A program made the translations under genes and the position numbers. Positions 3,758 to 55,421 of a DNA stretch of 56,403 nt are shown here, in pieces. Position 1 is the first letter of the stretch; the number at the start of each line of letters is the position of its first letter. Origin of the DNA: a virus; the IMG/VR virus record IMGVR_UViG_3300048584_000026, positions 1 through 56,403 of that record; one strand, given 5' to 3'. Below the pieces are notes generated by a model that made no database searches, was not told the origin of the DNA, and saw nothing but the letters and a program-made list of their open reading frames with translations.

Positions 3758-5044
3758 TCACGAGTTACCGATGGCATCCGTTTCATCATCGAAAGCGGAT
3801 ACCGCTGACGCGATCCCTTCCCGTTTATCGGAACTGGGGATCATCGTCACTTTCCCCGGCGGCTGGTGAACGAAAGGCGCAATGCGCTTGTCGTTCGCCT
3901 TAAGACTGCCGCCGAGAGAAACCCTTAATAGCTGAACTGCCTGCGCAGGGGAAATGAATTTTTGCTCGTACATGTCGAGATCAGTAATACCGCGACCGCG
4001 AAGCATACGACGAGCAGCCGCTTCGTCTGTCCATTTACGGTTTCCGGCCCGGCCCATCCCGAGTTTTTGTCCCGGAACTTCGACATCCATTTCCAACTTC
4101 TTAAGCAAGTAGTCGTACATCTCCCGGAAATACTTCTCCAGAATCGGTCGCCACTCATAAATCTGGGCAAGACGCTCGACCGGGACTTCGCTGTACACTG
4201 GGAGACGTAGTTCGGAAACCATTTCCTGTTCTATCACGGCCACGGCTTGAGCCGGGGACATCTCGTTGTCGTCGAGATCGTCGAAACTGGCCGCCGCGAG
4301 CTTGACGTTTACCGCTGCCAGCGCCGGACAAGTGAACCGGGCAGGGCAGTACTCGCAGGCAATCGGATCGGGGTTGTACGGTGCCTCTGGGTCCCATGCC
4401 TTGTGAGCAGCCGCCCGGTAACGCTCTCCGAACTCAAGAAGCTGGTCGCGCGTGATGGTCCAGACATCGTAATTCTCTCGACGCGGTTGCACGATCTGGA
4501 TTTCGATCTCTTGGAAGTCGTACAGCCAGTCAAGCTCCTCGAACGCGCCAAGCGCGTAAGCCTGCCCCTGTTCGTTGTCCTCTGCATCCACCCAGACCTT
4601 GCCGTATTTGAGGTCCTTGACCCGCAGCTTGCCCCACTCGGCGCTGATGTGGTCCGAAGTCCCGAAGCTCGGAACGGGGGTGTACTTGGATAGATCGACC
4701 TTGACTTCGACGTAGTGCTTGCCCGGCATAGTCGAGACGAGCGAAACGTATTCTTCGACGTAGGAAATCATTTCCTCGGTGATCTCGATCTCGAACCCGT
4801 CCTTGGTGTGAACGGTGCCGAGATACCGATATGGGTTCCCGCTGGTCAGCCACTCCTCGGCAAGCCAGTGAGCGATAGAACCTTCGGCGGCGTAATAGCT
4901 GGGGTTATCGCCCGCCAGATGACCGGCGATCAGTGATCGCGGGCATCGCATCCAACGGTGTGCGCTGGACGGCCCAAAGATCGAGTGACCCGTGGCGTTC
5001 TTGTCCGCGAGCATCTGATCTGTGATAGGATGATGTTCGGACAT
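3758..5044 (-). CDS. DUF2800-family nuclease (Cas4/RecB-like, Fe-S)
   Basis: The 428-residue product has the DUF2800 signature GPSSAHRWMRCPRS near the N-terminus and a C-terminal cysteine cluster CEYCPARFTCPA. Together with the first cysteine (MRCP) these resemble the Fe-S ligands of Cas4/AddB-type PD-(D/E)XK exonucleases. It probably processes DNA ends for recombination-dependent replication, together with the neighbouring DUF2815 protein. The start codon lies five bases after a perfect 24-bp hairpin whose last GGGG is the only plausible ribosome site. Palindrome sites at 4214 and 4763 lie inside the gene and encode EMVS and EMIS. Confidence 0.85.
   Translation of the reverse strand: MSEHHPITDQMLADKNATGHSIFGPSSAHRWMRCPRSLIAGHLAGDNPSYYAAEGSIAHWLAEEWLTSGNPYRYLGTVHTKDGFEIEITEEMISYVEEYVSLVSTMPGKHYVEVKVDLSKYTPVPSFGTSDHISAEWGKLRVKDLKYGKVWVDAEDNEQGQAYALGAFEELDWLYDFQEIEIQIVQPRRENYDVWTITRDQLLEFGERYRAAAHKAWDPEAPYNPDPIACEYCPARFTCPALAAVNVKLAAASFDDLDDNEMSPAQAVAVIEQEMVSELRLPVYSEVPVERLAQIYEWRPILEKYFREMYDYLLKKLEMDVEVPGQKLGMGRAGNRKWTDEAAARRMLRGRGITDLDMYEQKFISPAQAVQLLRVSLGGSLKANDKRIAPFVHQPPGKVTMIPSSDKREGIASAVSAFDDETDAIGNS
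4214..4226. repeat. Dispersed 13-bp palindrome, perfect copy (GGAAACCATTTCC)
   Basis: This matches GGAAAYNRTTTCC at every position. It lies inside the DUF2800 gene, where it is read as EMVS. See the finding on the genome-wide family. Confidence 0.75.
4763..4775. repeat. Dispersed 13-bp palindrome, perfect copy (GGAAATCATTTCC)
   Basis: Perfect copy inside the DUF2800 gene, read as EMIS on the minus strand, 549 bases from the copy at 4214. Confidence 0.8.
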
Positions 5045-5754: not shown

Positions 5755-6024
5755 ATGTCAGCAGAAAAATTTCCCGTTCCCGCTTGGGTAGAGCCGGAAC
5801 AGAGGGCCGAATTTGCCGTTCGTCTGGCGGCCTTCTACCACGATAAAAGCGGGAGCCTCGGGAAACTTTCCGTGGCTCTCGGCGGCTCGTCGTCAATGCT
5901 GCACATGCAGTTGAACACCACCGGGACCATCACCGTAAACACCTGTATCAAGATCGAGGAACTTCTGGGTCGCGAGACCTTCCCGCGCGAATTTTTCCGT
6001 CCTGACATTTTCGTTGCGGAGTAG
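5755..6024 (+). CDS. Small HTH protein, Cro/YdaS-like regulator
   Basis: The product has 89 residues. The segment from LGKLSVALGGSSSMLHMQL to NTCIKIEELLGRE, followed by FFRPDIF, has the shape of YdaS/Cro-type phage regulators. In that family a helix-turn-helix is followed by a CxxIE helix and a terminal LRPD(I/L)F element. It is the first gene right of the divergent control region, as expected for a regulator of early genes. AAGG lies 8 bases before the ATG. The family call is by pattern and its operator is unknown. The genome-wide 13-bp palindrome is one possibility. Confidence 0.6.
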   Translation: MSAEKFPVPAWVEPEQRAEFAVRLAAFYHDKSGSLGKLSVALGGSSSMLHMQLNTTGTITVNTCIKIEELLGRETFPREFFRPDIFVAE

Positions 6025-6032
6025 ACCGAGTC

Positions 6033-8504
6033 ATGGCCGCACGGCGCTACATGGAGGAGTTCGGCGTTAAGATCGCCGGGAACGGGTATGAGGTCATCCC
6101 GATCATTCCCGGCGAAAAACGCCCGGCGGGTAAGAACTGGCAGAAGCTCGCCGGTACGGTAGAGGGGGTCCACGACTACCTCGCCGACGGCAAAGGCGAT
6201 CACGGGATCGGCATTAAGGCCCGTCTATGCCCCAGCGTTGACATCGACGTTCTGGACGAGGCGGTAAACGCTGAAATCCAGCAGATCGTTCTGGATATAG
6301 TCGGTGATACGCCCCTAAAGAGAATTGGTTTCGCGCCGAAGGTCCTTTGGGTCTACCGGGCCGAGAAGGACTCGATGTTCCCGAAGGTCGATACCGGCAT
6401 GTGGGTTGATTCCCAAGGTCGGTCATCGAAGGTAGAAATCCTTGCCGACGGCCAGCAGTTTGTCGCGGCGCACATCCACCCAGACACAGGCAAGCCGTAC
6501 AAGTGGCTGACGGATTCACCGCTGACCCTAGGCCGATCTGATCTGCCGGTGCTTACGCACGAGCAGGCGAACCAGATCAAGGAGAAGGTCCTCCAGCTTT
6601 TCCTAGCGCACGGCTGGACCAAGAAATCCAAGAACGCGATCACGCGGCTGGTCAACCCTCTCGACGACGACGATCCGTTCAGCGCCTACAGGCCCAAGGT
6701 CCAGATCGGCGACCGGGAGCTTGAGCGCAAGCTGTTCCAGATCAAGGACAACACAGACCACGATGTCTGGGTCCAGATCGGCATGGCGCTGTACCACCAG
6801 TACGACGGAAGCGAGCAGGGTTTCGAACTCTGGGATCGTTGGTCCTCCAGCGCACACAATTACAGCGAGGAGGAGTGCCGCAAGCGTTGGCCCAGCTTCT
6901 CGAACAAGGACAATTCGCACACGCCGATGACGTGTCGGATCATCCTCAAGCTCGCCAAGACTTCCGAGAAAGAGGAGATCGAGGAGAAGTCCAAGGACTT
7001 CGCCGACCGGCTGGCTCTGGCGGGCAGCACGGACGAGCTTGTCGCGGTTTGCGACGAGATCAAGGTGACAGAGTTCCCGAACCACGTCCGGGAGCTTATC
7101 ACCGGCAAGGTCCGCGCCAACTGGAAGCGGCTCACCGGGGACAACCCACGTATCGGTTTCATCCGTGAGCTTATCCGGTTCGAAAACCGCGAAATCATTT
7201 CCGCTCCGCCGTGGGTGAAGCCGTGGGTCTACTGCTCGCAGACCGACGAACTGTTCAACATGGTGAACCGCACCCAGCTTGACCGGGCAGCCTTTAACGT
7301 GGCCCACGCCCGGTTCATGCTCACACCGCAAGAGCGGCTGGAGGGCAAAGCGGTCCCGGAGACCCAGCCTGTTGACGCCGTGGTGAACCTGTTCCAGATT
7401 CCGGTCGTCTACAATCGCATGTTCATGCCCGGTCAGCCGACCCTCTACTCCATGGACGGGATCGACTACGCGAACAGCTACACCGAAGAAGGTATCCCGG
7501 AGCTTCCGGGGAACCTGTCCCCGGTCGAAGAAGAAGCGATCCAGATATTCCTCGGCCACTTGGAGCATATCATCGCCAACGAGAACGACCGGCGTATCTT
7601 CCTCGATTTCCTGACCTACATCGTGAAGAACCCCGGACAGCGGATTAACTGGGCGATCCTGTTGCAGGGCGCAGAGGGCGACGGTAAGTCGTTCTTCTCC
7701 GTCGTTCTGGAGGCCGTTCTGGGTACCAACAACATCAACATGATTGCCGGGAACGCGCTGGAGGAAAAGTACAACCCATGGGCCGAGAACGCCCTCGTCT
7801 GCTTCATCGAAGATGTCCGGTTGCATGGCGCTAATCGCTTCGACGCGATCAACACGCTCAAGCCGATGATTACGAACAGCCGCGTCTCGATCCGGCGGAT
7901 GCAGACGAACATCTACACGGTCGTCAACACGATGAATTACATCCTGACCGCGAACGTGAAGGACGCTATGCCGGTCGGCGACGAGGACAGCCGTATCTTC
8001 CCGATCTTTACCCGGTTCCAGCGGTCGAGCGATCTGGACCGCTTCAAGACAGACAACCCGCACTATTACGACCGGCTGTTCGCGATCCTCCAGTTCGCCG
8101 GGGCGCTCCGCCAGTTCTTCTTGCTGCGGAAGATCAGCCCCGACTTCAATCCGAAGGCCCGTGCGCCCAAGTCGAGCTATCGCCGCGAGATGATCCTGCT
8201 GAACAAGTCGGAGGAGGTCACGGCTCTGGAGGACACGCTGGAGGTCAGCGATCAGCCGGACTACAGCGAGTTCCTGCTGGACAGCGGCAAGCTTGCCGAT
8301 CACTTCATGGGAACCGATGCTCTCGCCCCGCGTAGTAAGGCTCTGAGCCGTCTGTTGAGCCAGTATGGGTTCACGCTGCTGGGGCGCTTCAAGGTGAACG
8401 GAGAGAAGCGCCAGTATTGGTCAATGAAACCGTGGGCGTGGCCTGAGGACGACAACAAGCGCGGTGACGCGATTCGGGACTACCTCGATCCGGAGGGCTT
8501 GTGA
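6033..8504 (+). CDS. Bifunctional primase-polymerase/helicase
   Basis: The product has 823 residues. The N-terminal Prim-Pol domain shows the metal-binding SVDIDVLD motif (D70, D72) and SSKVEILADGQQFV. A PriCT-2-like segment follows around residues 240-290 (YHQYDGSEQGFELWDRW). The C-terminal SF3/D5-like helicase has Walker A GAEGDGKS near 546-553 and a Walker B-like ALVCFIED. It should prime and unwind DNA at the replication fork. There is no separate primase or DnaB-type helicase in the window, consistent with this fused form. A one-mismatch palindrome (7190-7202) is read as EIIS. Confidence 0.93.
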   Translation: MAARRYMEEFGVKIAGNGYEVIPIIPGEKRPAGKNWQKLAGTVEGVHDYLADGKGDHGIGIKARLCPSVDIDVLDEAVNAEIQQIVLDIVGDTPLKRIGFAPKVLWVYRAEKDSMFPKVDTGMWVDSQGRSSKVEILADGQQFVAAHIHPDTGKPYKWLTDSPLTLGRSDLPVLTHEQANQIKEKVLQLFLAHGWTKKSKNAITRLVNPLDDDDPFSAYRPKVQIGDRELERKLFQIKDNTDHDVWVQIGMALYHQYDGSEQGFELWDRWSSSAHNYSEEECRKRWPSFSNKDNSHTPMTCRIILKLAKTSEKEEIEEKSKDFADRLALAGSTDELVAVCDEIKVTEFPNHVRELITGKVRANWKRLTGDNPRIGFIRELIRFENREIISAPPWVKPWVYCSQTDELFNMVNRTQLDRAAFNVAHARFMLTPQERLEGKAVPETQPVDAVVNLFQIPVVYNRMFMPGQPTLYSMDGIDYANSYTEEGIPELPGNLSPVEEEAIQIFLGHLEHIIANENDRRIFLDFLTYIVKNPGQRINWAILLQGAEGDGKSFFSVVLEAVLGTNNINMIAGNALEEKYNPWAENALVCFIEDVRLHGANRFDAINTLKPMITNSRVSIRRMQTNIYTVVNTMNYILTANVKDAMPVGDEDSRIFPIFTRFQRSSDLDRFKTDNPHYYDRLFAILQFAGALRQFFLLRKISPDFNPKARAPKSSYRREMILLNKSEEVTALEDTLEVSDQPDYSEFLLDSGKLADHFMGTDALAPRSKALSRLLSQYGFTLLGRFKVNGEKRQYWSMKPWAWPEDDNKRGDAIRDYLDPEGL

Positions 8505-9181: not shown

Positions 9182-9309
9182 GCCGGGACCTCTAGCACGA
9201 TCTGGAGAATCTGGTAAGCCGTCCTGCGGTCCACCAGCTTCTCGTCTCGCCAGATCGGGTCGAAGGCATCGTGCGCCCGCTTCTTGGGGTTTACCCGTAC
9301 TCGCCGCAT
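9079..9309 (-). CDS. Small phage protein resembling the C-terminal part of DUF3268 proteins
   Basis: ATG at 9309 has AAGGG six bases upstream and overlaps the preceding stop. The 76-residue product contains RAHDAFDPIWRDEKLVDRRTAYQILQ. This matches the AHxxFDPLW...SRxxAYxWL segment that follows the zinc finger in DUF3268-type phage proteins. The zinc-finger half is absent, so this is a short or decayed version. Function unknown. Confidence 0.6.
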   Translation of the reverse strand: MRRVRVNPKKRAHDAFDPIWRDEKLVDRRTAYQILQIVLEVPAWQSHMRHAPASVVKRVPAASRRLRRLLRGCNGL

Positions 9310-9779
9310 CCCGCGCCCTTGTCCGAACGGCCTGCGTGATAGCCGCCTGTAAACGTCTGCCACGGAACCCAACCCTTCGGGCAATGGAATCCCCAGTCCC
9401 GGACCTTCGGGCCGGTCATAAACAGACTGATCGACGGCTGGCCCCCGATAAGCTCCAGCCGGTGAGCGTCGGTCGCCTTGCGAGAGATCACATCGCCCGG
9501 TATCCGGTGTAGCAGGAAGTCCGGCGTGTGTTCGATGTATCCGCCCGCGATCACGAACGATGTGTTATCCCAAGGGTGGTCGTGCATCACGTCGTCGTCG
9601 GACCGCAGGGTCTCGTGGAGGTAGACGTTCAGGCTCTCGTTCCGGGGGATAATGTACCAGCGGCGCATGTAGTCCCCGCCAATCACAAAATCCGGCTCAC
9701 GCTGCATCACGTCAAGCGCCCAGAGGTACATGTCGCCGATATTGGCGTACTGATCGGCGAACCGCTTCATATCGAACAT
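9291..9779 (-). CDS. Cupin-like phage protein
   Basis: The 162-residue product has a VMHDHPWDNTSFVIAGGYIEH motif, a later AHRLELIGG strand and an SLFMTGPKVRDWGF strand. This pattern is seen in small cupin-fold phage proteins in which the HDHPW histidines probably bind a metal. The reaction is unknown. It lies in a tight run of small leftward genes (stop-start distances of a few bases), so it is expressed with them. Confidence 0.65.
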   Translation of the reverse strand: MFDMKRFADQYANIGDMYLWALDVMQREPDFVIGGDYMRRWYIIPRNESLNVYLHETLRSDDDVMHDHPWDNTSFVIAGGYIEHTPDFLLHRIPGDVISRKATDAHRLELIGGQPSISLFMTGPKVRDWGFHCPKGWVPWQTFTGGYHAGRSDKGAGCGEYG

Positions 9780-11101: not shown

Positions 11102-11929
11102 TCAGGCTGCCTTCGGTCGGTTGATGTAGGTGAGGGGTTCCCCGTTCTTGTCGTAGGTATGCTCGACCACGGTTGCCTTGCAACGAGTCTTGCTTCCCCT
11201 GACATAGTGACGAGACCCTTCTTCTCCCTGCCGCAGGAAACCTAGCAGCCGGGGCGACGACTTGGTGGCGATCTTGCAGCCGTTCTCGTCGGTGCAGAGC
11301 GTCCAGTGCGACATGATATGCGGGAACTCGCTGATAAGTCGGCTCTGGGTGTGGATCAGAGTCAATTCGAAATCGCGGCGCTCCTTGATCGTGCCAACAT
11401 GGCGAGCAGCGGCCACTCGGGCGCGTTCCTTCTCGTTGCGCTCGATGATCTGGTTCACGACCTCGATCTGCCGGTCAGTCGGCTCCTTGGCTTCCACGAC
11501 GATACGATCCCGGATCGACTGGAGTACTTCGACCTCACCGTGCGCCAGTTCCGCGTCGATCCGGGCGATGAAACCCTCGTTCCCGGAAATGATTTCCGCC
11601 CGCTGGGCGTCACGGCGCTCCTGCTCGATCCGAGCGGCCTCGGCCCGAGCAGCGGCCTTCTTCGCGGTCCGCTTCTCAGCCGCCGCGTCCAGCCGGGCGT
11701 TCTGCTCCGGGGTGTAGAGCTTATGGGTCTCGTTGACCGGATCAATACCGGAGCCGCCGCAGCGATAGCACTTCCAGCCGGTGTTGCTGCCAGCCGGTCC
11801 CCAAGCATCCGATCCGCCTGCGCCGCCGCAACGAACGCACTTCCGCGAGCAGATGTGCAGCGGCTTACCGTTCTTGTCGGCGTGGGTGGCCCGGAGAGCC
11901 TGACCAGATCGGTTGTAGAGGATGACCAT
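11102..11929 (-). CDS. Phage protein with N-terminal DnaJ-like zinc finger
   Basis: The product has 275 residues. Two CxxCxGxG-type elements, CVRCGGAGG and CYRCGGSG, form a likely zinc-binding module at residues 35-62. A long charged coiled coil follows (about 80-190, rich in Ala, Arg and Glu), then a C-terminal domain ending NGEPLTYINRPKAA. Related zinc-finger/coiled-coil proteins are frequent in phages without known function. It is the first gene of the leftward 8.6-11.9 kb unit and starts 85 bases from the iteron array. A perfect palindrome (11585) encodes EIIS. Confidence 0.65.
   Translation of the reverse strand: MVILYNRSGQALRATHADKNGKPLHICSRKCVRCGGAGGSDAWGPAGSNTGWKCYRCGGSGIDPVNETHKLYTPEQNARLDAAAEKRTAKKAAARAEAARIEQERRDAQRAEIISGNEGFIARIDAELAHGEVEVLQSIRDRIVVEAKEPTDRQIEVVNQIIERNEKERARVAAARHVGTIKERRDFELTLIHTQSRLISEFPHIMSHWTLCTDENGCKIATKSSPRLLGFLRQGEEGSRHYVRGSKTRCKATVVEHTYDKNGEPLTYINRPKAA
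11585..11597. repeat. Dispersed 13-bp palindrome, perfect copy (GGAAATGATTTCC)
   Basis: Inside the zinc-finger protein gene, read as EIIS on the minus strand. Confidence 0.8.
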
Positions 11930-12014: not shown

Positions 12015-12346
12015 GGGGCAAGATCAGGGGCAAGATCAGGGGCAAGATCGGATCATGCCCCTCGTTTTCGGCCACTTTGGGGGGAAAATGAATCAGAAAT
12101 CCCTTCCCGCGAGGGGCAAGATCGCCCGTGTTTTGATCTTGCCCCTGATCTTGCCCCTGATCTTGCCCCTGAGAAAATACTGAATTTCCTTACTTATTTC
12201 GAGATACCCCCCTAAAGGGGCAAGATAATCTTAAAAACGAAGCTCTGTATACGAGGAAAAACTTGCCGTGTTAAGTGACGAACACATAACTTTGGTGAAA
12301 TTTTTTCCCACAGCCTGAATAAGGGAAAATCGGTCGATCTTGCCCC
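12015..12346. repeat. Iteron array GGGGCAAGATC, candidate replication origin
   Basis: Direct copies lie at 12015, 12027 and 12039 (12-bp period), with another at 12113 and a 10-of-11 match at 12217. Inverted copies (GATCTTGCCCC) lie at 12135, 12147 and 12159 (12-bp period) and at 12336, with a one-mismatch copy at 12051. The blocks 12015-12049 and 12135-12169 are exact 35-bp reverse complements. The adjacent AT-rich DNA fits an unwinding element. An operator array for a repressor is the alternative. Confidence 0.8.
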
Positions 12347-12525
12347 TCGGATGCCTCGTTCATAAAAGTCGGTCAGACTCATTAACAGAAATTCGTTCGA
12401 CCGGGTGCGGCCCTCCAGCACCCGAAAACCGGCATCGCCAAGCTTCGTTTGCACAGATCAGACAGGAACTTGGACCAACTTCGGAAATGATTTCGCGATC
12501 CGGAAATGCCTAGGAGCAGATAACC

Positions 12526-12538
12526 GGAAATCATTTCC
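12526..12538. repeat. Dispersed 13-bp palindrome, perfect copy (GGAAATCATTTCC)
   Basis: Non-coding copy near the candidate origin. A one-mismatch copy lies 43 bases away (12483-12495) and a half site GGAAAT lies between them at 12502. Confidence 0.8.
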
Positions 12539-12685
12539 AATAGCGAGGTCATACGCGAAATCGGGAATGTCAGAAGAAAAGCGGCTCAGCGCCCCCACCC
12601 CCGCTGGCCCGCTCTGCCTATAGTACCTAAAGGGTCTATCGCTGATTCATTATGCCCTAGGCCCCGTTCTGGCGGCCTGTGAGTA

Positions 12686-12724
12686 ATGATTCAGGGCGGC
12701 CCGCTAGGCCCCTAGCTGAATCAT
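12686..12724. other. Nested hairpin in the non-coding region
   Basis: ATGATTCA (12686-12693) pairs with TGAATCAT (12717-12724), and GCTAGG (12703-12708) pairs with CCTAGC (12711-12716) inside it. TTTT follows on the plus strand. It may be a terminator for rightward transcripts or a protein site. Confidence 0.4.
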
Positions 12725-12784
12725 TTTCGTGCAATCCTGAGGCCCTGCACAAGGCCCAGCCGCTCGCCCTTGTTGCGGGCATAA

Positions 12785-12815
12785 GAAAAGGGCCGCCGGG
12801 TTTCCCCAGCGGCCC
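12785..12815 (-). terminator. Intrinsic terminator of the leftward 12.8-18.5 kb operon
   Basis: On the minus strand GGGCCGC (12815-12809) pairs with GCGGCCC (12796-12790). An inner GGG-GAAA-CCC tetraloop helix and TTTTCTT complete the structure. It lies 24 bases after the last small gene of that operon. Confidence 0.75.
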
Positions 12816-12838
12816 TGTTGCGTCCGATTGTCCGGACC

Positions 12839-12976
12839 TCAGGCGTTCAAGCTATCGCATAGGCGGGCCACCTCAGCGGCGGCCCTATCAGCGGCCACGC
12901 TATCCCCTCGCCTCAGGGCCGCCCGCCTGTCCCTGTCCGCCGCTAGGGCGAGGTCCGCTATATGCTGCGAGTTCAC
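12839..12976 (-). CDS. Very small Ala/Arg-rich protein (45 aa), unknown
   Basis: GTG at 12976 overlaps the preceding TGA as GTGA, and the frame stays open to TGA at 12841-12839. The product is helical and charged (VNSQHIADLALAADRDRRAA). It is the last gene of the operon, directly before the terminator. Its reality rests on the overlap and spacing, and no homologue is recognised. Confidence 0.5.
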   Translation of the reverse strand: MNSQHIADLALAADRDRRAALRRGDSVAADRAAAEVARLCDSLNA

Positions 12977-13197
12977 AGGCGGCCCCCTTTATCGCAGGCC
13001 CGGCGGCCCGTGAGGCCCGCCCGTCCGCCGGTTCGCCTGTCCCTGAGGGCGGCCCTGTCCCGCTTATCCCGTTGCCTCAGCCGCAGGGCCTCAGCATAGG
13101 CCGCGATATGCGCGAAAGCGAATCCCCCAAAATAGGCGGCCTCGCCATAGTCGCAACAGGTGGCCGCGTGGCCGCAGGGTTGAATAAAGCGGGCCAC
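12973..13197 (-). CDS. Small protein with Cys pair, unknown
   Basis: GTG at 13197 lies two bases after the upstream stop. The 74-residue product begins VARFIQPCGHAATCCDYGEA and becomes strongly basic toward the C-terminus (RQRDKRDRAALRDRRTGGR). The CGHAATCC cluster could bind metal. No family recognised. Confidence 0.5.
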   Translation of the reverse strand: MARFIQPCGHAATCCDYGEAAYFGGFAFAHIAAYAEALRLRQRDKRDRAALRDRRTGGRAGLTGRRACDKGGRL

Positions 13198-13199
13198 GA

Positions 13200-13415
13200 T
13201 TAGAGACCCCACAGGGCGAGCGATTGCCCCACAGACAAGCCTTGCGCCTTGTCCACTTGATAGGCCCCCCAGATCAGCCCAGCCGTTGCGAGGGCCACGG
13301 CTAACAGGATTGCGATTCCCATTCGGTCCGCATTGCGTTTACGGACCTCAGCCGCAGACAGGCGGGCCTTGCGGACATAGCGGCCACGGGGGGCGGGTTG
13401 CGAGTTATGGCGCAT
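13200..13415 (-). CDS. Small single-pass membrane protein
   Basis: ATG at 13415 follows an AAGGGGGG tract. The 71-residue product has a basic N-terminus (RHNSQPAPRGRYVRKARLSA). A clear hydrophobic helix MGIAILLAVALATAGLIWG spans about residues 33-51, with a short tail. Orientation by charge would place the N-terminus in the cytoplasm. Function unknown. Confidence 0.6.
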   Translation of the reverse strand: MRHNSQPAPRGRYVRKARLSAAEVRKRNADRMGIAILLAVALATAGLIWGAYQVDKAQGLSVGQSLALWGL

Positions 13416-13429
13416 TAGATCAGCCCCCC

Positions 13430-13582
13430 TTAGCAACAGGGACGGACAGGGCCGCCCGCGTAAGGGGAAACGATTGCGGGGCGTACCTCGCGCCCGTGGC
13501 GATTGTACAGGGGGCCTGTGTAGGGCGTGAACCGTTCGGCAATGTCCCCCCAGCGGGGCGAGCGGGTAATGGGAAGGCGCAT
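13430..13582 (-). CDS. Small protein (50 aa), unknown
   Basis: ATG at 13582 is preceded by AAGGAGTC at a good distance, the same extended ribosome site used by several neighbours. The product is basic, proline-rich and ends PVRPCC. No function can be read. Confidence 0.5.
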   Translation of the reverse strand: MRLPITRSPRWGDIAERFTPYTGPLYNRHGREVRPAIVSPYAGGPVRPCC

Positions 13583-13655
13583 AGATGGACTCCTTGTGTG
13601 GCGGGCCACCGTGGCCCGTAGGGCCATGCTACGGGCCACCCTTTAACAAACGGTA

Positions 13656-13685
13656 AAGGCCGCCGGACTCTCGCCCGGCGGCCTT
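13656..13685 (-). terminator. Hairpin, terminator-like, inside the leftward orphan operon
   Basis: AAGGCCGCCGG (13656-13666) and CCGGCGGCCTT (13675-13685) form a perfect 11-bp stem with an 8-nt loop. On the minus strand only TTTA follows, so termination may be partial. Confidence 0.6.
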
Positions 13686-13713
13686 GCCTTGCCCAGTGTT
13701 GCCCCGAACGGGT

Positions 13714-27515: not shown

Positions 27516-28757
27516 ATGACTACCACCATCAACCTCCCCGCCGACAAGTTCGACAACACCATGACGTTCGTGCGGCCTGAAAACCCGGCCACGCGCGTTG
27601 CGCTGGACAAGCTGGCTGTGTTGCCCGGCTTCAATACCCGCGTCAAGGACGCGGACTACAACGAGCGTGTCACCGGCATCGCCGAGAGCATCGTCGCCAA
27701 CGGCTTCTTCGATGACAAGCCGTTCGCTGTGACCATGCTGCCCGGCGATGATACGGTCTACATCTACGACGGTGAACACCGTTTCGACGCGGCCAAGGCG
27801 GCCCTGCTCGACGGTGCCGAGTTCCCGGACGGCCTGCCGGTCGCATGGGCGAAGGACGGCGCGACGGTCCGCGACCTGACGATCCACCTTGCCCACGGTA
27901 ACGCAGGCGAGCGGCTGAACATGGTCGAACTTGCTGCGGTCGTGCGCCGTATGCAGGGCCTCGGCATGGAGAAGGGCGAGATCGCCGAAGCTCTGGGCCG
28001 TACGACCCGCCACATCGACAACCTGTTCGTCCTCGCCGAAGCGAACCAGACCGTGAAGCGCGCCGTCGCCAGTGGCAAGATCGCTGGGGCCGAGGCCGTC
28101 AAGCTTGTCCGCAAGCACGGCAGCAAGGATGCGGCGACCGAGATCACGGCCCGGATCAAGAAGGCCGAGGAGCAGGGTAAGGCGAAGGCCACGCCCAAGA
28201 CGGCTATCAGCGCGCCGACCGGCCCAAAGATGAAGAAGGTCAACCTGACCATGACCTTCGGCACTGGCGACGTTATGGCCGATCTGTTGAAGAACATGGC
28301 GAAGGCGATTCGCGCCGAAGTCCAGATCGGCGAAGGCGACAAGCTGGCCGAGGACGGCAAGATCGAGGTCGTGATCCACGTCGTCGATCAGCAGGCCGAG
28401 GCTGCCAAGATCGCGGCAGAGAAGGCCAAGGCCGAAGCTGCGGCGAAGCGTGAAGCCGAGAAGGCGGAAGCTGCGAAGGCCAAGGCCGAAGCCAAGGCCA
28501 AGCGTGAAGCCGAGAAGGCGGAGGCAGCCAAGAAGAAGGAAGCCGAAGCCAAGGCCAAGCGCGCCGCCGAAGCCAAGCTCCTCAAGGAAGCCGCGAAGGG
28601 CAAGCCCGCCAGCGGGGCCAAGACCCCTGCGAAGGACAAGCCCGCGAAGGCCCCTGCGAAGCCCAAGGCTGCGTCGAAGGCTTCGGAGGCCCCAGCAGCC
28701 GCAGAATCGCCGGAAAAGGCCCCCAGCACGGGCGACGACGGCATGGGCGGCCTCTAA
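27516..28757 (+). CDS. ParB/RepB-like DNA-binding protein
   Basis: The product has 413 residues. The N-terminal ParB-N domain has YIYDGEHRFDAAKAALL (equivalent of the nucleotide-binding GERR box). A central helix-turn-helix reads MEKGEIAEALGRTTRHIDNL. A final 150-residue tail is almost only Ala, Lys, Glu and Pro, ending TGDDGMGGL. No ParA partner is visible. It could be a partition-like, transcriptional or ParB-type nuclease protein. It is the best candidate for recognising a palindromic site family, but that is inference. Confidence 0.85.
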   Translation: MTTTINLPADKFDNTMTFVRPENPATRVALDKLAVLPGFNTRVKDADYNERVTGIAESIVANGFFDDKPFAVTMLPGDDTVYIYDGEHRFDAAKAALLDGAEFPDGLPVAWAKDGATVRDLTIHLAHGNAGERLNMVELAAVVRRMQGLGMEKGEIAEALGRTTRHIDNLFVLAEANQTVKRAVASGKIAGAEAVKLVRKHGSKDAATEITARIKKAEEQGKAKATPKTAISAPTGPKMKKVNLTMTFGTGDVMADLLKNMAKAIRAEVQIGEGDKLAEDGKIEVVIHVVDQQAEAAKIAAEKAKAEAAAKREAEKAEAAKAKAEAKAKREAEKAEAAKKKEAEAKAKRAAEAKLLKEAAKGKPASGAKTPAKDKPAKAPAKPKAASKASEAPAAAESPEKAPSTGDDGMGGL

Positions 28758-52684: not shown

Positions 52685-54883
52685 TCAAGCAATCTTGGAA
52701 GCGATTTCGCTCAGGTCATAACGGGTTTTCTTGCGCTCTGCAAATGCTTCGCTGCCCTGCCGGATGATAAACGGGTTGTCGGGGTCGTCCGGATCGGCCC
52801 AGACCGGAACTCGGTTCCAAAAACTAGGCCGCTCGCAGCGGATGTACTTGGTCATACATAGACCAATGGCGTAATACAGCAAGTCCCATGCTTCGTTGTT
52901 CCTGACGCCGGGTGCTTTGACCCAGCCCTTTTCTTTCAGGACCTCGGAGCAGAACTCCTTGAACAGCCAAGCCGGGTTCCACTTGGGGATTCTTACCATG
53001 CCTTTATTAGGCACTTCGGAGGAAAGTCTGTTGTTCGCTTCGTTCTTCAACTGATTCGAGTTCAACTGCCAGACCGGAACGTCACCGCGCGCCGTGGCAA
53101 GGTTCTTCCTGTCACTGGCGTCAGGGAAAGTCTCCCGGACCTGAGGCGCGTTGGGCGTACCCGTACCCTTGAGCAGCAGGAAACGATTTCCGAGTCCAAC
53201 AGCCTTGAGGGTGCGCCAGAACGCATAAGCGTTCGCAGTCACGCCAGCCTTACCCCCGGAGTCGCAACCCGCGATCCGGATAGCCATACGCGTATCACGA
53301 CCCTGCATAGGGTAGCTGCGCTTCACGACTTGATCTGTCAGGAGGTCCCAGTCCTCTAGGTAGGTCCCCGGCTTGACCCACTGGACATCGCCATCCTCGT
53401 CCTTGCGCTTCGACTTGCGAATGTCGAACCGCTCCACCAGCACGAGGTCATAAGGCTCGCCGGGAACAACGCCCCAGACCTGTACGACGAACATGTTCTT
53501 CTGCACGTCGATAGTAGCCAGAAGAAAAGCGATCTCGGAAATGATTTCAATCTCGCCGGTCTCAGGGTTGCGTCCGAAGTCCTCCGCCCGAGAGATCAGG
53601 TCCTCTGGGGTGCGTTCGGCTTCGGCAGCCTTCGGCTTATAGGGCCGCCCCAAGTCGGTGTTGTAGAACTTGCGCAGCGGCTCCTCGTTCAGTGTGGAGT
53701 CAAACTCCTCCTCCGCTGTCAGGTATGCTGCGACCAGTTTCGGCCAGTTGGTGAAGGCCGCAGAGCATCCCTCCAGCCAATAGCTCGCATACTTCGACCG
53801 GCGGGGATTGCCGATGACGCGGCCTGCCTCGATCCGGCAGCCGTCAGGCAGCCAGAGACCGTTCTGGGCGAGCGTGAACCGCTCGTCAGGGTGAATCTTG
53901 CCCTCGCAAACAGGACACTTGAGGCGGACGGTCTCGGCGGCATCAAGGCCGTTCGCAAACGGGTCCCACTCCAGCAGTTCAAACCGAGGCTCGAAATACT
54001 CGCCACATCTGCCGCAAGGAATGTACCAGCGCCGACGGTCGCCGCGATTGTACAGGGCCAGAATCCCCGTGGTCGGGGGTGCCTCGTGCGCTGTCTTGGG
54101 GACGTAACGAAAGTCCGTAATCGCGCGGCTGGGGGAGGACTCGCAGAGGGTCATCGCGAAAGAGCCGTACGAGGTCGTGCGCTTGGTCGCCAAGTCGAAA
54201 GGGTCGCCTTCCCCGTCGATGTCATCCTCCATGCGGTCGCGGTCAGTCAGCGCGATCCGGGGGATAGGCTTACCGGCGAGTTCGGCTTTCGTCGGCCACG
54301 CGAGGCCAAGGATCGTTCCGTTCTTGTAGTGCTTGTCGAACTTGTTGTCCGCGTCACGGCTCTCCAGAAGCTCTTTGCCCACAAGCTCAGAGTCCCGGTG
54401 CAAGCGGTCGATACGCCGGTTTGAGAAGTCGCGGGCGTTGCCCTGCGTCGGGGAGAAGATGGTCATGTCCGACGGCTCTGCGCGAACCGAGTAGCCTGCC
54501 CAGTTCAGGATCAACTCGGTTTTGCCGCACTGGGCCGGACCCACAAAGATAACCGCATCAAGCTCCGGGTCCACCAGCTTGTCCAACGGCTCCCGAAGGT
54601 ACGGCGCATACGAAAAGCGCCAAGGCCCGACGTAGCCCGGCGCGTTGTTCAGGTAGCGTTCTTGCTCCGTCCATTCAGACGGCTTACGGTGATCGGGATC
54701 GAGCCATATCTGCTCGACGGTCCGGCAGACTACATCACCGAGATCGCTATAGCCCGTTATACTGGTCCTCGGTTTCCGGGGAGCCAAGAAGGCCAGTTCC
54801 TCGCTCGTCAACCGGCTCGTGTTCACGAACGAGGAGAGGGCCGTCAGGTCCATGTCCTGCGTCGTACTCGGGGCCGTCGCCAT
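52685..54883 (-). CDS. Terminase large subunit, GpA family
   Basis: The product has 732 residues. The N-terminal ATPase has Walker A GPAQCGKT (115-122) and a following SVRAEPSDMTIFSPTQGNAR. A zinc-type cluster CGRC (near 285) and CPVC (near 320) is typical of gpA-type enzymes. The C-terminal nuclease has ATIDVQKNMFVVQVWG and AGCDSGGKAGVTANAYAFW. It packages DNA into the prohead and cuts it at the ends. Two palindrome sites lie in the gene (53179 perfect, 53538 with one mismatch). Confidence 0.93.
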   Translation of the reverse strand: MATAPSTTQDMDLTALSSFVNTSRLTSEELAFLAPRKPRTSITGYSDLGDVVCRTVEQIWLDPDHRKPSEWTEQERYLNNAPGYVGPWRFSYAPYLREPLDKLVDPELDAVIFVGPAQCGKTELILNWAGYSVRAEPSDMTIFSPTQGNARDFSNRRIDRLHRDSELVGKELLESRDADNKFDKHYKNGTILGLAWPTKAELAGKPIPRIALTDRDRMEDDIDGEGDPFDLATKRTTSYGSFAMTLCESSPSRAITDFRYVPKTAHEAPPTTGILALYNRGDRRRWYIPCGRCGEYFEPRFELLEWDPFANGLDAAETVRLKCPVCEGKIHPDERFTLAQNGLWLPDGCRIEAGRVIGNPRRSKYASYWLEGCSAAFTNWPKLVAAYLTAEEEFDSTLNEEPLRKFYNTDLGRPYKPKAAEAERTPEDLISRAEDFGRNPETGEIEIISEIAFLLATIDVQKNMFVVQVWGVVPGEPYDLVLVERFDIRKSKRKDEDGDVQWVKPGTYLEDWDLLTDQVVKRSYPMQGRDTRMAIRIAGCDSGGKAGVTANAYAFWRTLKAVGLGNRFLLLKGTGTPNAPQVRETFPDASDRKNLATARGDVPVWQLNSNQLKNEANNRLSSEVPNKGMVRIPKWNPAWLFKEFCSEVLKEKGWVKAPGVRNNEAWDLLYYAIGLCMTKYIRCERPSFWNRVPVWADPDDPDNPFIIRQGSEAFAERKKTRYDLSEIASKIA
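53179..53191. repeat. Dispersed 13-bp palindrome, perfect copy (GGAAACGATTTCC)
   Basis: Inside the terminase gene, read as GNRF, again a frame different from EIIS. Confidence 0.7.
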
Positions 54884-55421
54884 ATCCTTCGAACTCCTTC
54901 ATAATCGCTTTGCGTCCCTCCACCAGCGCGCCTTCGACGACGCGGCGAACAACGGCCTTCTGCTCTCGGCTCAGGCCCGCTTCGCGCTCGATTGTGTCAG
55001 GTAGCAGCAGGAGGATCATACGGACGCTGTTGAACAGCACTGAGATCAGCCGCACAACGCGGCTGGTGCGCCAGAGATCACCGATCATCTCCTCGTACGA
55101 CGCACGGGTTTTTTGGGCGCTCCAGAAGGCGTTCTGGAGCATCGGCGGGAGGTCTGAGTGGTTCATGTTCATAATGACGCGCTCGATGTCGTAGCCCGGC
55201 TTGACAAGCCGGGTAGCGGCCTCTGGGACCGAGTAGATCGGCGTACCCCGGCGGCGACCGACCGGCACAAGGCTGGAGACCTTGCTGGTGACGACCTTAG
55301 GGTCCATTTTGAACATGATGGCAAGCTGACGGATAGTCGCGCCCTCGTAGATGATCGCCGAGCTTTCGGGATCGTCCGACCGGACCAGATTTTCGTCTTG
55401 CTTACGTGCCGCCGAAGCCAC
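54747..55421 (-). CDS. Terminase small subunit-like protein (DUF1441 type)
   Basis: GTG 55421 follows the upstream stop TAA directly, with AAAGG in range. The 224-residue product has an N-terminal HTH (GATIRQLAIMFKMDPKVVTSKV) for DNA recognition and a helical oligomerisation region (REAGLSREQKAVVRRVVEGA). It ends in an acidic tail (ETEDQYNGL). It overlaps the large-subunit gene by 137 bases. It should recognise packaging sites and load the large subunit. Confidence 0.8.
   Translation of the reverse strand: MASAARKQDENLVRSDDPESSAIIYEGATIRQLAIMFKMDPKVVTSKVSSLVPVGRRRGTPIYSVPEAATRLVKPGYDIERVIMNMNHSDLPPMLQNAFWSAQKTRASYEEMIGDLWRTSRVVRLISVLFNSVRMILLLLPDTIEREAGLSREQKAVVRRVVEGALVEGRKAIMKEFEGYGDGPEYDAGHGPDGPLLVREHEPVDERGTGLLGSPETEDQYNGL

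Follow-up and report, generated by a model that had tools for sequence, protein, structure and literature searches.

The window, a 56,403-nucleotide stretch covering the whole of the IMG/VR record IMGVR_UViG_3300048584_000026, is judged from its sequence to be a Casjensviridae-like (Chi/Nazgul-type) phage, because the nearest named relatives of its primase, Sphingomonas phage Carli, Erythrobacter phages R22L/R16L and Burkholderia phages BcepNazgul/AH2, include Nazgul, which is classified in Casjensviridae. The closest contig found, IMGVR_UViG_3300034072_000679 (G001), is collinear with the window at ~70–89% DNA identity, and comparison with G001 indicates that ~1.6 kb is absent between the contig ends (1 and 56403), leaving the genome nearly, not fully, complete. 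Megablast and distant blastn searches of the window against named phages were uninformative, matching only a cysteine-dioxygenase fragment; the corresponding gene (9291–9779) has DNA-level similarity to Gordonia/Mycobacterium phage genes, unlike the remaining stretch searched. The replication genes encode a family A polymerase, a Gp2.5-like SSB, a DUF2800 exonuclease and a PrimPol-PriCT_2-SF3 helicase (DUF5906) protein (6033–8504, plus strand; PF09250, PF08707 and PF19263), the candidate initiator considered below. Immediately 5' of this primase gene, in a position like that of orf56 in pRN1, lies the gene of an 89-AA HTH-like protein without a PHROG match (5755–6024, plus strand). The minus strand carries the genes of a 275-AA zinc-finger-like protein (11102–11929), which opens a leftward operon adjoining the repeat array described here, and of the terminase small subunit (54750–55421, phrog_141).

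The array occupies positions 12015–12346. All eight exact copies of GGGGCAAGATC in the 56.4-kb record fall within these 332 bp, in which 0.0002 copies are expected, and a search of the whole record found none outside the array. Four copies are on the plus strand (12015, 12027, 12039 and 12113) and four on the minus strand (12135, 12147, 12159 and 12336). Cluster A (12015–12049, plus) consists of three head-to-tail GGGGCAAGATC iterons with a 12-bp period, and cluster B (12135–12169, minus) of three copies that form the exact reverse complement of cluster A, in full agreement with the 35-bp inverted repeat, the 12-bp triplet period and the 85-bp spacer of the original prediction. The other exact iterons are a single copy at 12113–12123 (plus) and an outlying one, the closest to cos, at 12336–12346 (minus). 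Two further iterons have one mismatch each, GGGGCAAGATA with a GATA end (12217–12227, plus) and the degenerate GGGGCATGATC (12051–12061, minus); nine copies had originally been counted, of which eight are exact and the ninth, at 12217, is the mismatched GGGGCAAGATA. Between the opposed clusters lies a non-iteron spacer element, GTTTTCGGCCACTTTGGGGG (TTTTCGGCCACTTTGGGG; 12064–12083, plus), and like elements occur, with variations, in about ten relatives, among them L016, L026, L030, L035 and R22L. Copies of TGATTCA/TGAATCA are dispersed around the array.

A candidate DNA unwinding element at 12174–12323 is 63% AT, against 38% AT for the genome. The segment following the triplets tops the whole window for AT content at the 100-, 150-, 200- and 300-bp scales, as had been noticed earlier. 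Across relatives, the locus-wide AT-richest 120 bp fell inside the array span in 33 of 37 loci, where ~3% would be expected given that the span makes up ~3% of the locus. GC skew, which had been proposed as a check, showed no inflection at the array in the window and thus neither supports nor weakens an origin reading.

A candidate cos overhang, GGGGCGCTGAGC, was placed by homology at 12584–12595 (minus strand), and its ~75-bp flank is near-identical in G001. The cos of phage Chi, determined experimentally, is 12 bases, GGTGCGCAGAGC (PMC4342425); the annotated cos of Nazgul reads AGGGCGCAGAGC on the matching strand, and the Carli record starts, at its terminus, with GGGGCGCGGAGC. By this homology, 12584–12595 is taken as the cos of the window, which would put the array 237–569 bp from cos, inside the end leading to the primase, an adjacency absent from the original prediction. 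Beside cos, inverted repeats GGAAATGATTTC / GAAATCATTTCC at 12480–12540 are kept in G001. The region beyond cos (12600–13713) is apparently a non-coding right chromosome end with dense GGCGGCCCT/AGGGCCGCC-type repeats, and comparable GC-rich repeats occupy the same place in L016 and R22L.

A search for the repeat in related phages, as originally suggested, found comparable arrays of similar geometry, but the word itself differs by lineage. G001, whose proteins are 71–83% identical, matches the window in its triplets, outliers and AT-rich stretch, all in the same place; R22L has the same layout made of GGAACCGATT, and the AH2/Nazgul relatives one made of AGGTCCGAAT. Phage Chi contains seven GGTTACAAA-type sites 225–496 bp from cos, with an AT-rich peak at 264–383. 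Overall, primase-to-cos arrays with changed repeat sequences were called in about 40 of the 80 viral loci that have primase homologues. In these arrays the cluster orientation alternates over ~500 bp, and neighbouring iterons on the same strand are mostly 9–13 bp apart. Opposed clusters are kept in the relatives and the perfect inverted repeat mostly is not, and a cruciform extruded from the 35-bp repeat, which the original prediction had allowed for, thus appears not to be required. In 22 of the 32 loci with an identified cos, the cos-proximal 600 bp had the highest repeat score of all 600-bp windows tested in that locus, and dinucleotide shuffles almost never came near the cos-proximal score. 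A significant array was absent in L036, L057 and FoX4. In L259 (Aeromonas phage A18P4), the HTH-primase cassette is apparently inverted relative to the exonuclease genes; no clear array follows its primase, and only a weak repeat was seen on the other side of the cassette.

Where these arrays lie bears on what might bind them. In the window and in G001 the array is directly upstream of the operon that runs leftward from 11929, as an operator bound by a repressor of that operon would be. In Nazgul, however, the annotated genes of both flanks, the primase and, past cos, a set of leftward genes, converge on the array, so the array is not generally an operator; in many relatives (including L021, L022, L027, L034 and L086) it directly follows the primase stop codon, and in the window the repeats are found nowhere else in the genome. 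We regard an operator as very improbable.

Also in loci where other genes come between the array and the primase, the array is on the terminase-gene side of cos and within ~50–650 bp of it. In the window the distance from the primase gene to the array is 3.5 kb, i.e. the iterons are not directly downstream of the helicase gene, and here, as in L015, L016, L030, L176 and L097, genes intervene between primase and cos and the array remains by cos. Because the array stays with cos in such loci, a cosB-like packaging site was first suggested, at which a Nu1-type small terminase subunit would bind the repeats and place terminase at cos. In phage lambda, the cosB repeats beside cos are read with the small terminase Nu1; likewise, the repeats of the window are near a candidate cos, and its small terminase, of the same family as that of Nazgul, has an N-terminal HTH that is Nu1-like by eye only. 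The array is nevertheless unlike lambda cosB in its extent, in its AT-rich core, the extreme composition of which would be unexpected at a packaging site, and in its persistence with unrelated terminases. Comparable arrays stand right after the primase in L086, L084, L087 and the Vibrio phages LP.1 and 1.017.O, together with AT-rich DNA in the first three, whereas the packaging genes, in the three of these in which they could be typed, belong to other PHROGs (TerS phrog_1482 and TerL phrog_38 in L086, TerS phrog_606 in LP.1, TerL phrog_2 in L084). Since arrays persist beside the primase despite other terminase families, the array appears to follow the replication module.

The original prediction had recognised no initiator and expected a new binding protein. 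Indeed, no Rep_3-type initiator was present among the subset of ORFs scanned with Pfam and PHROGs, but the best candidate is encoded close by, and the neighbouring primase-helicase is probably the initiator, the earlier statement being in that case wrong. Its SF3/D5-type helicase was confirmed by sequence and fold matches in the PDB to NrS-1 and SaPI5, Foldseek aligning the model of the window primase with the C-terminal region of NrS-1 polymerase and with the SaPI5 primase-helicase. The AF2 model (pLDDT 88), computed from an alignment of the window and the viral loci of the primase set only, predicts a C-terminal winged helix at AA 727–798 (codons 8211–8426, plus strand), with helices at 727–738, 751–758 and 768–778, the last being the putative recognition helix, and wing strands at 781–788 and 791–797. 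The C-terminal domain modelled alone by AF2 also adopted a winged-helix topology. With this domain alone as query, Foldseek gave no match with E below 0.1, and VIA-align gave weak matches (Z ~4–5, best 5.0), mostly to winged helices (Fur, PadR, PerR and Orc1); P4 alpha and SaPI Rep were not listed among the VIA-align matches, which excludes nothing. A ParB-like protein (27516–28757) was also considered as array binder, and R22L is annotated with a ParB/sulfiredoxin-domain protein too.

Alignment of the primase C-termini against the repeat sequences revealed that QT at the start of the helix goes with CCGAAT, YG mostly with CGAT-type iterons, and RS/RG with CAAGAT/CACGAT. When 731 alignment columns were ranked over 20 non-redundant loci by mutual information with two iteron bases, residue 768 came first and residue 767 second, in a test whose label was picked after viewing the recognition-helix region, and for that reason two further checks were made. 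For the first, a residue-to-iteron rule was fixed in writing before new arrays were called, with mixed results overall: it agreed for L190, L208, L258, L254, L195 and L260, several of which are closely related to training loci, and for L176, L135, L097, L257 and L256 it either failed or gave an ambiguous outcome. The second was frame-free and corrected for the divergence of residues 1–700; in 41 loci, the sliding windows 769–780 and 766–777 ranked first and second of 269. When the protein was divided into 34 segments of 48 residues, the winged helix came top, with a modest partial r of 0.24 (permutation p 0.0005), other segments also reaching p ~0.01–0.02 because of shared ancestry.

Compared over matched loci, the winged helix (0.29) exceeded whole TerS, the distances of which likewise track those of the iterons (partial r 0.21), as well as whole PolA, SSB, exonuclease, helicase and VRR; short single windows of PolA, SSB and TerS came near or above it, those of PolA up to 0.39. 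The evidence that the repeat sequence covaries best with the recognition helix of the primase winged helix is therefore good but not conclusive. Together with the arrays that accompany other terminases, it leaves a packaging site bound by the small terminase unlikely. A different binder for an origin would be the small HTH protein (5755–6024), which most relatives encode together with the primase, much as orf56 accompanies orf904 in pRN1 (PMC4234260), and which could bind the iterons and recruit the primase-helicase. Against this, L086 and L084/L087 have similar iterons, yet the small proteins encoded upstream of their primases seem unrelated, by eye MerR-like in the former and Cro-like in the latter, and the whole-protein correlation of the HTH protein on the matched loci is only 0.10, below that of the winged helix. 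Such recruitment is improbable in our assessment, and the analogy with pRN1 makes the HTH protein more likely a regulator of the operon than an iteron binder.

Similar arrangements are known from other replicons. SaPI Rep and SCCmec Cch2 each use the C-terminal domain to bind iterons close to the gene that encodes them, SaPI Rep apparently acting as two hexamers (PMC7581432), and the model of the window primase matches the SaPI5 primase-helicase structure; those systems are staphylococcal islands and cassettes, whereas the window is a tailed phage with a fused AEP PrimPol and an array by cos, 3.5 kb from the gene. P4 alpha is likewise a single primase-helicase whose winged helix binds the ori repeats (PMC4234260), but its primase is of the TOPRIM type and that of the window an AEP. 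In pRN1, an element downstream of the HTH-PrimPol operon is required (PMC4234260), and the order of an HTH-type regulator gene, a PrimPol-SF3-winged-helix gene and then a downstream element is like that of the window, although in pRN1 that element is a stem-loop and has no iterons. The BIP-1/BPP-1 proteins, for which an origin has been proposed (PMC4234260), contain PriCT_2 as does the window primase. NrS-1 PrimPol, with a homologous helicase region, uses a specific recognition sequence for priming, which at 8 nt has two copies only in the NrS-1 genome and forms no array (PMC7102993, PMC8718748).

The array and AT-rich element are conserved across many relatives and stay by the primase in phages with other terminases, and the repeats covary with the primase winged helix; on these grounds the candidate iteron origin of the original prediction is supported. 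We consider it likely that the array is an iteron origin beside cos and that the winged helix at the C-terminus of the phage's own PrimPol-SF3 helicase binds it, the helicase then melting the AT-rich element. What the sequence itself shows is the array, how it is conserved and arranged, the AT-rich element, the surroundings of cos and the recognition-helix covariation; iteron binding, melting and initiation in vivo are what we infer. The ~10-bp iterons, arranged in opposed clusters about one helical turn apart, would be bound by the winged helix; binding in both orientations may bring two helicase rings into a face-to-face arrangement, these rings would melt the adjacent element at 12174–12323, and the PrimPol domain could then prime. 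More tentatively, Casjensviridae may rely family-wide on a private, fast-recoded origin word that their own PrimPol-helicase recognises through its winged helix, the word being kept by cos in a similar geometry of alternating orientation, with lock-and-key co-evolution of initiator and origin, and a site at the chromosome end may couple the start of replication with packaging.

Within the open-library literature that was searched, no origin is described for Casjensviridae or Chi-like phages. As a putative member of the SF3 primase-helicase iteron origins, the array would be new in combining an AEP PrimPol, a link to cos and lineage-specific words in a conserved geometry. This reading gives exact, testable origin coordinates for many genomes, the textbook phage Chi included, and names a likely initiator; dozens of natural initiator-origin pairs could serve for working out the code by which an AEP PrimPol-SF3 helicase recognises DNA. 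No second array was found in the window, unlike L089, an Algicola sagamiensis element with near-identical GGTACC-iteron arrays 8 kb apart (4134–4400 and 12120–12390), of which one follows the primase and the other is close to genes for endolysin and terminase, a pair that recalls ori/crr of P4 by resemblance only.
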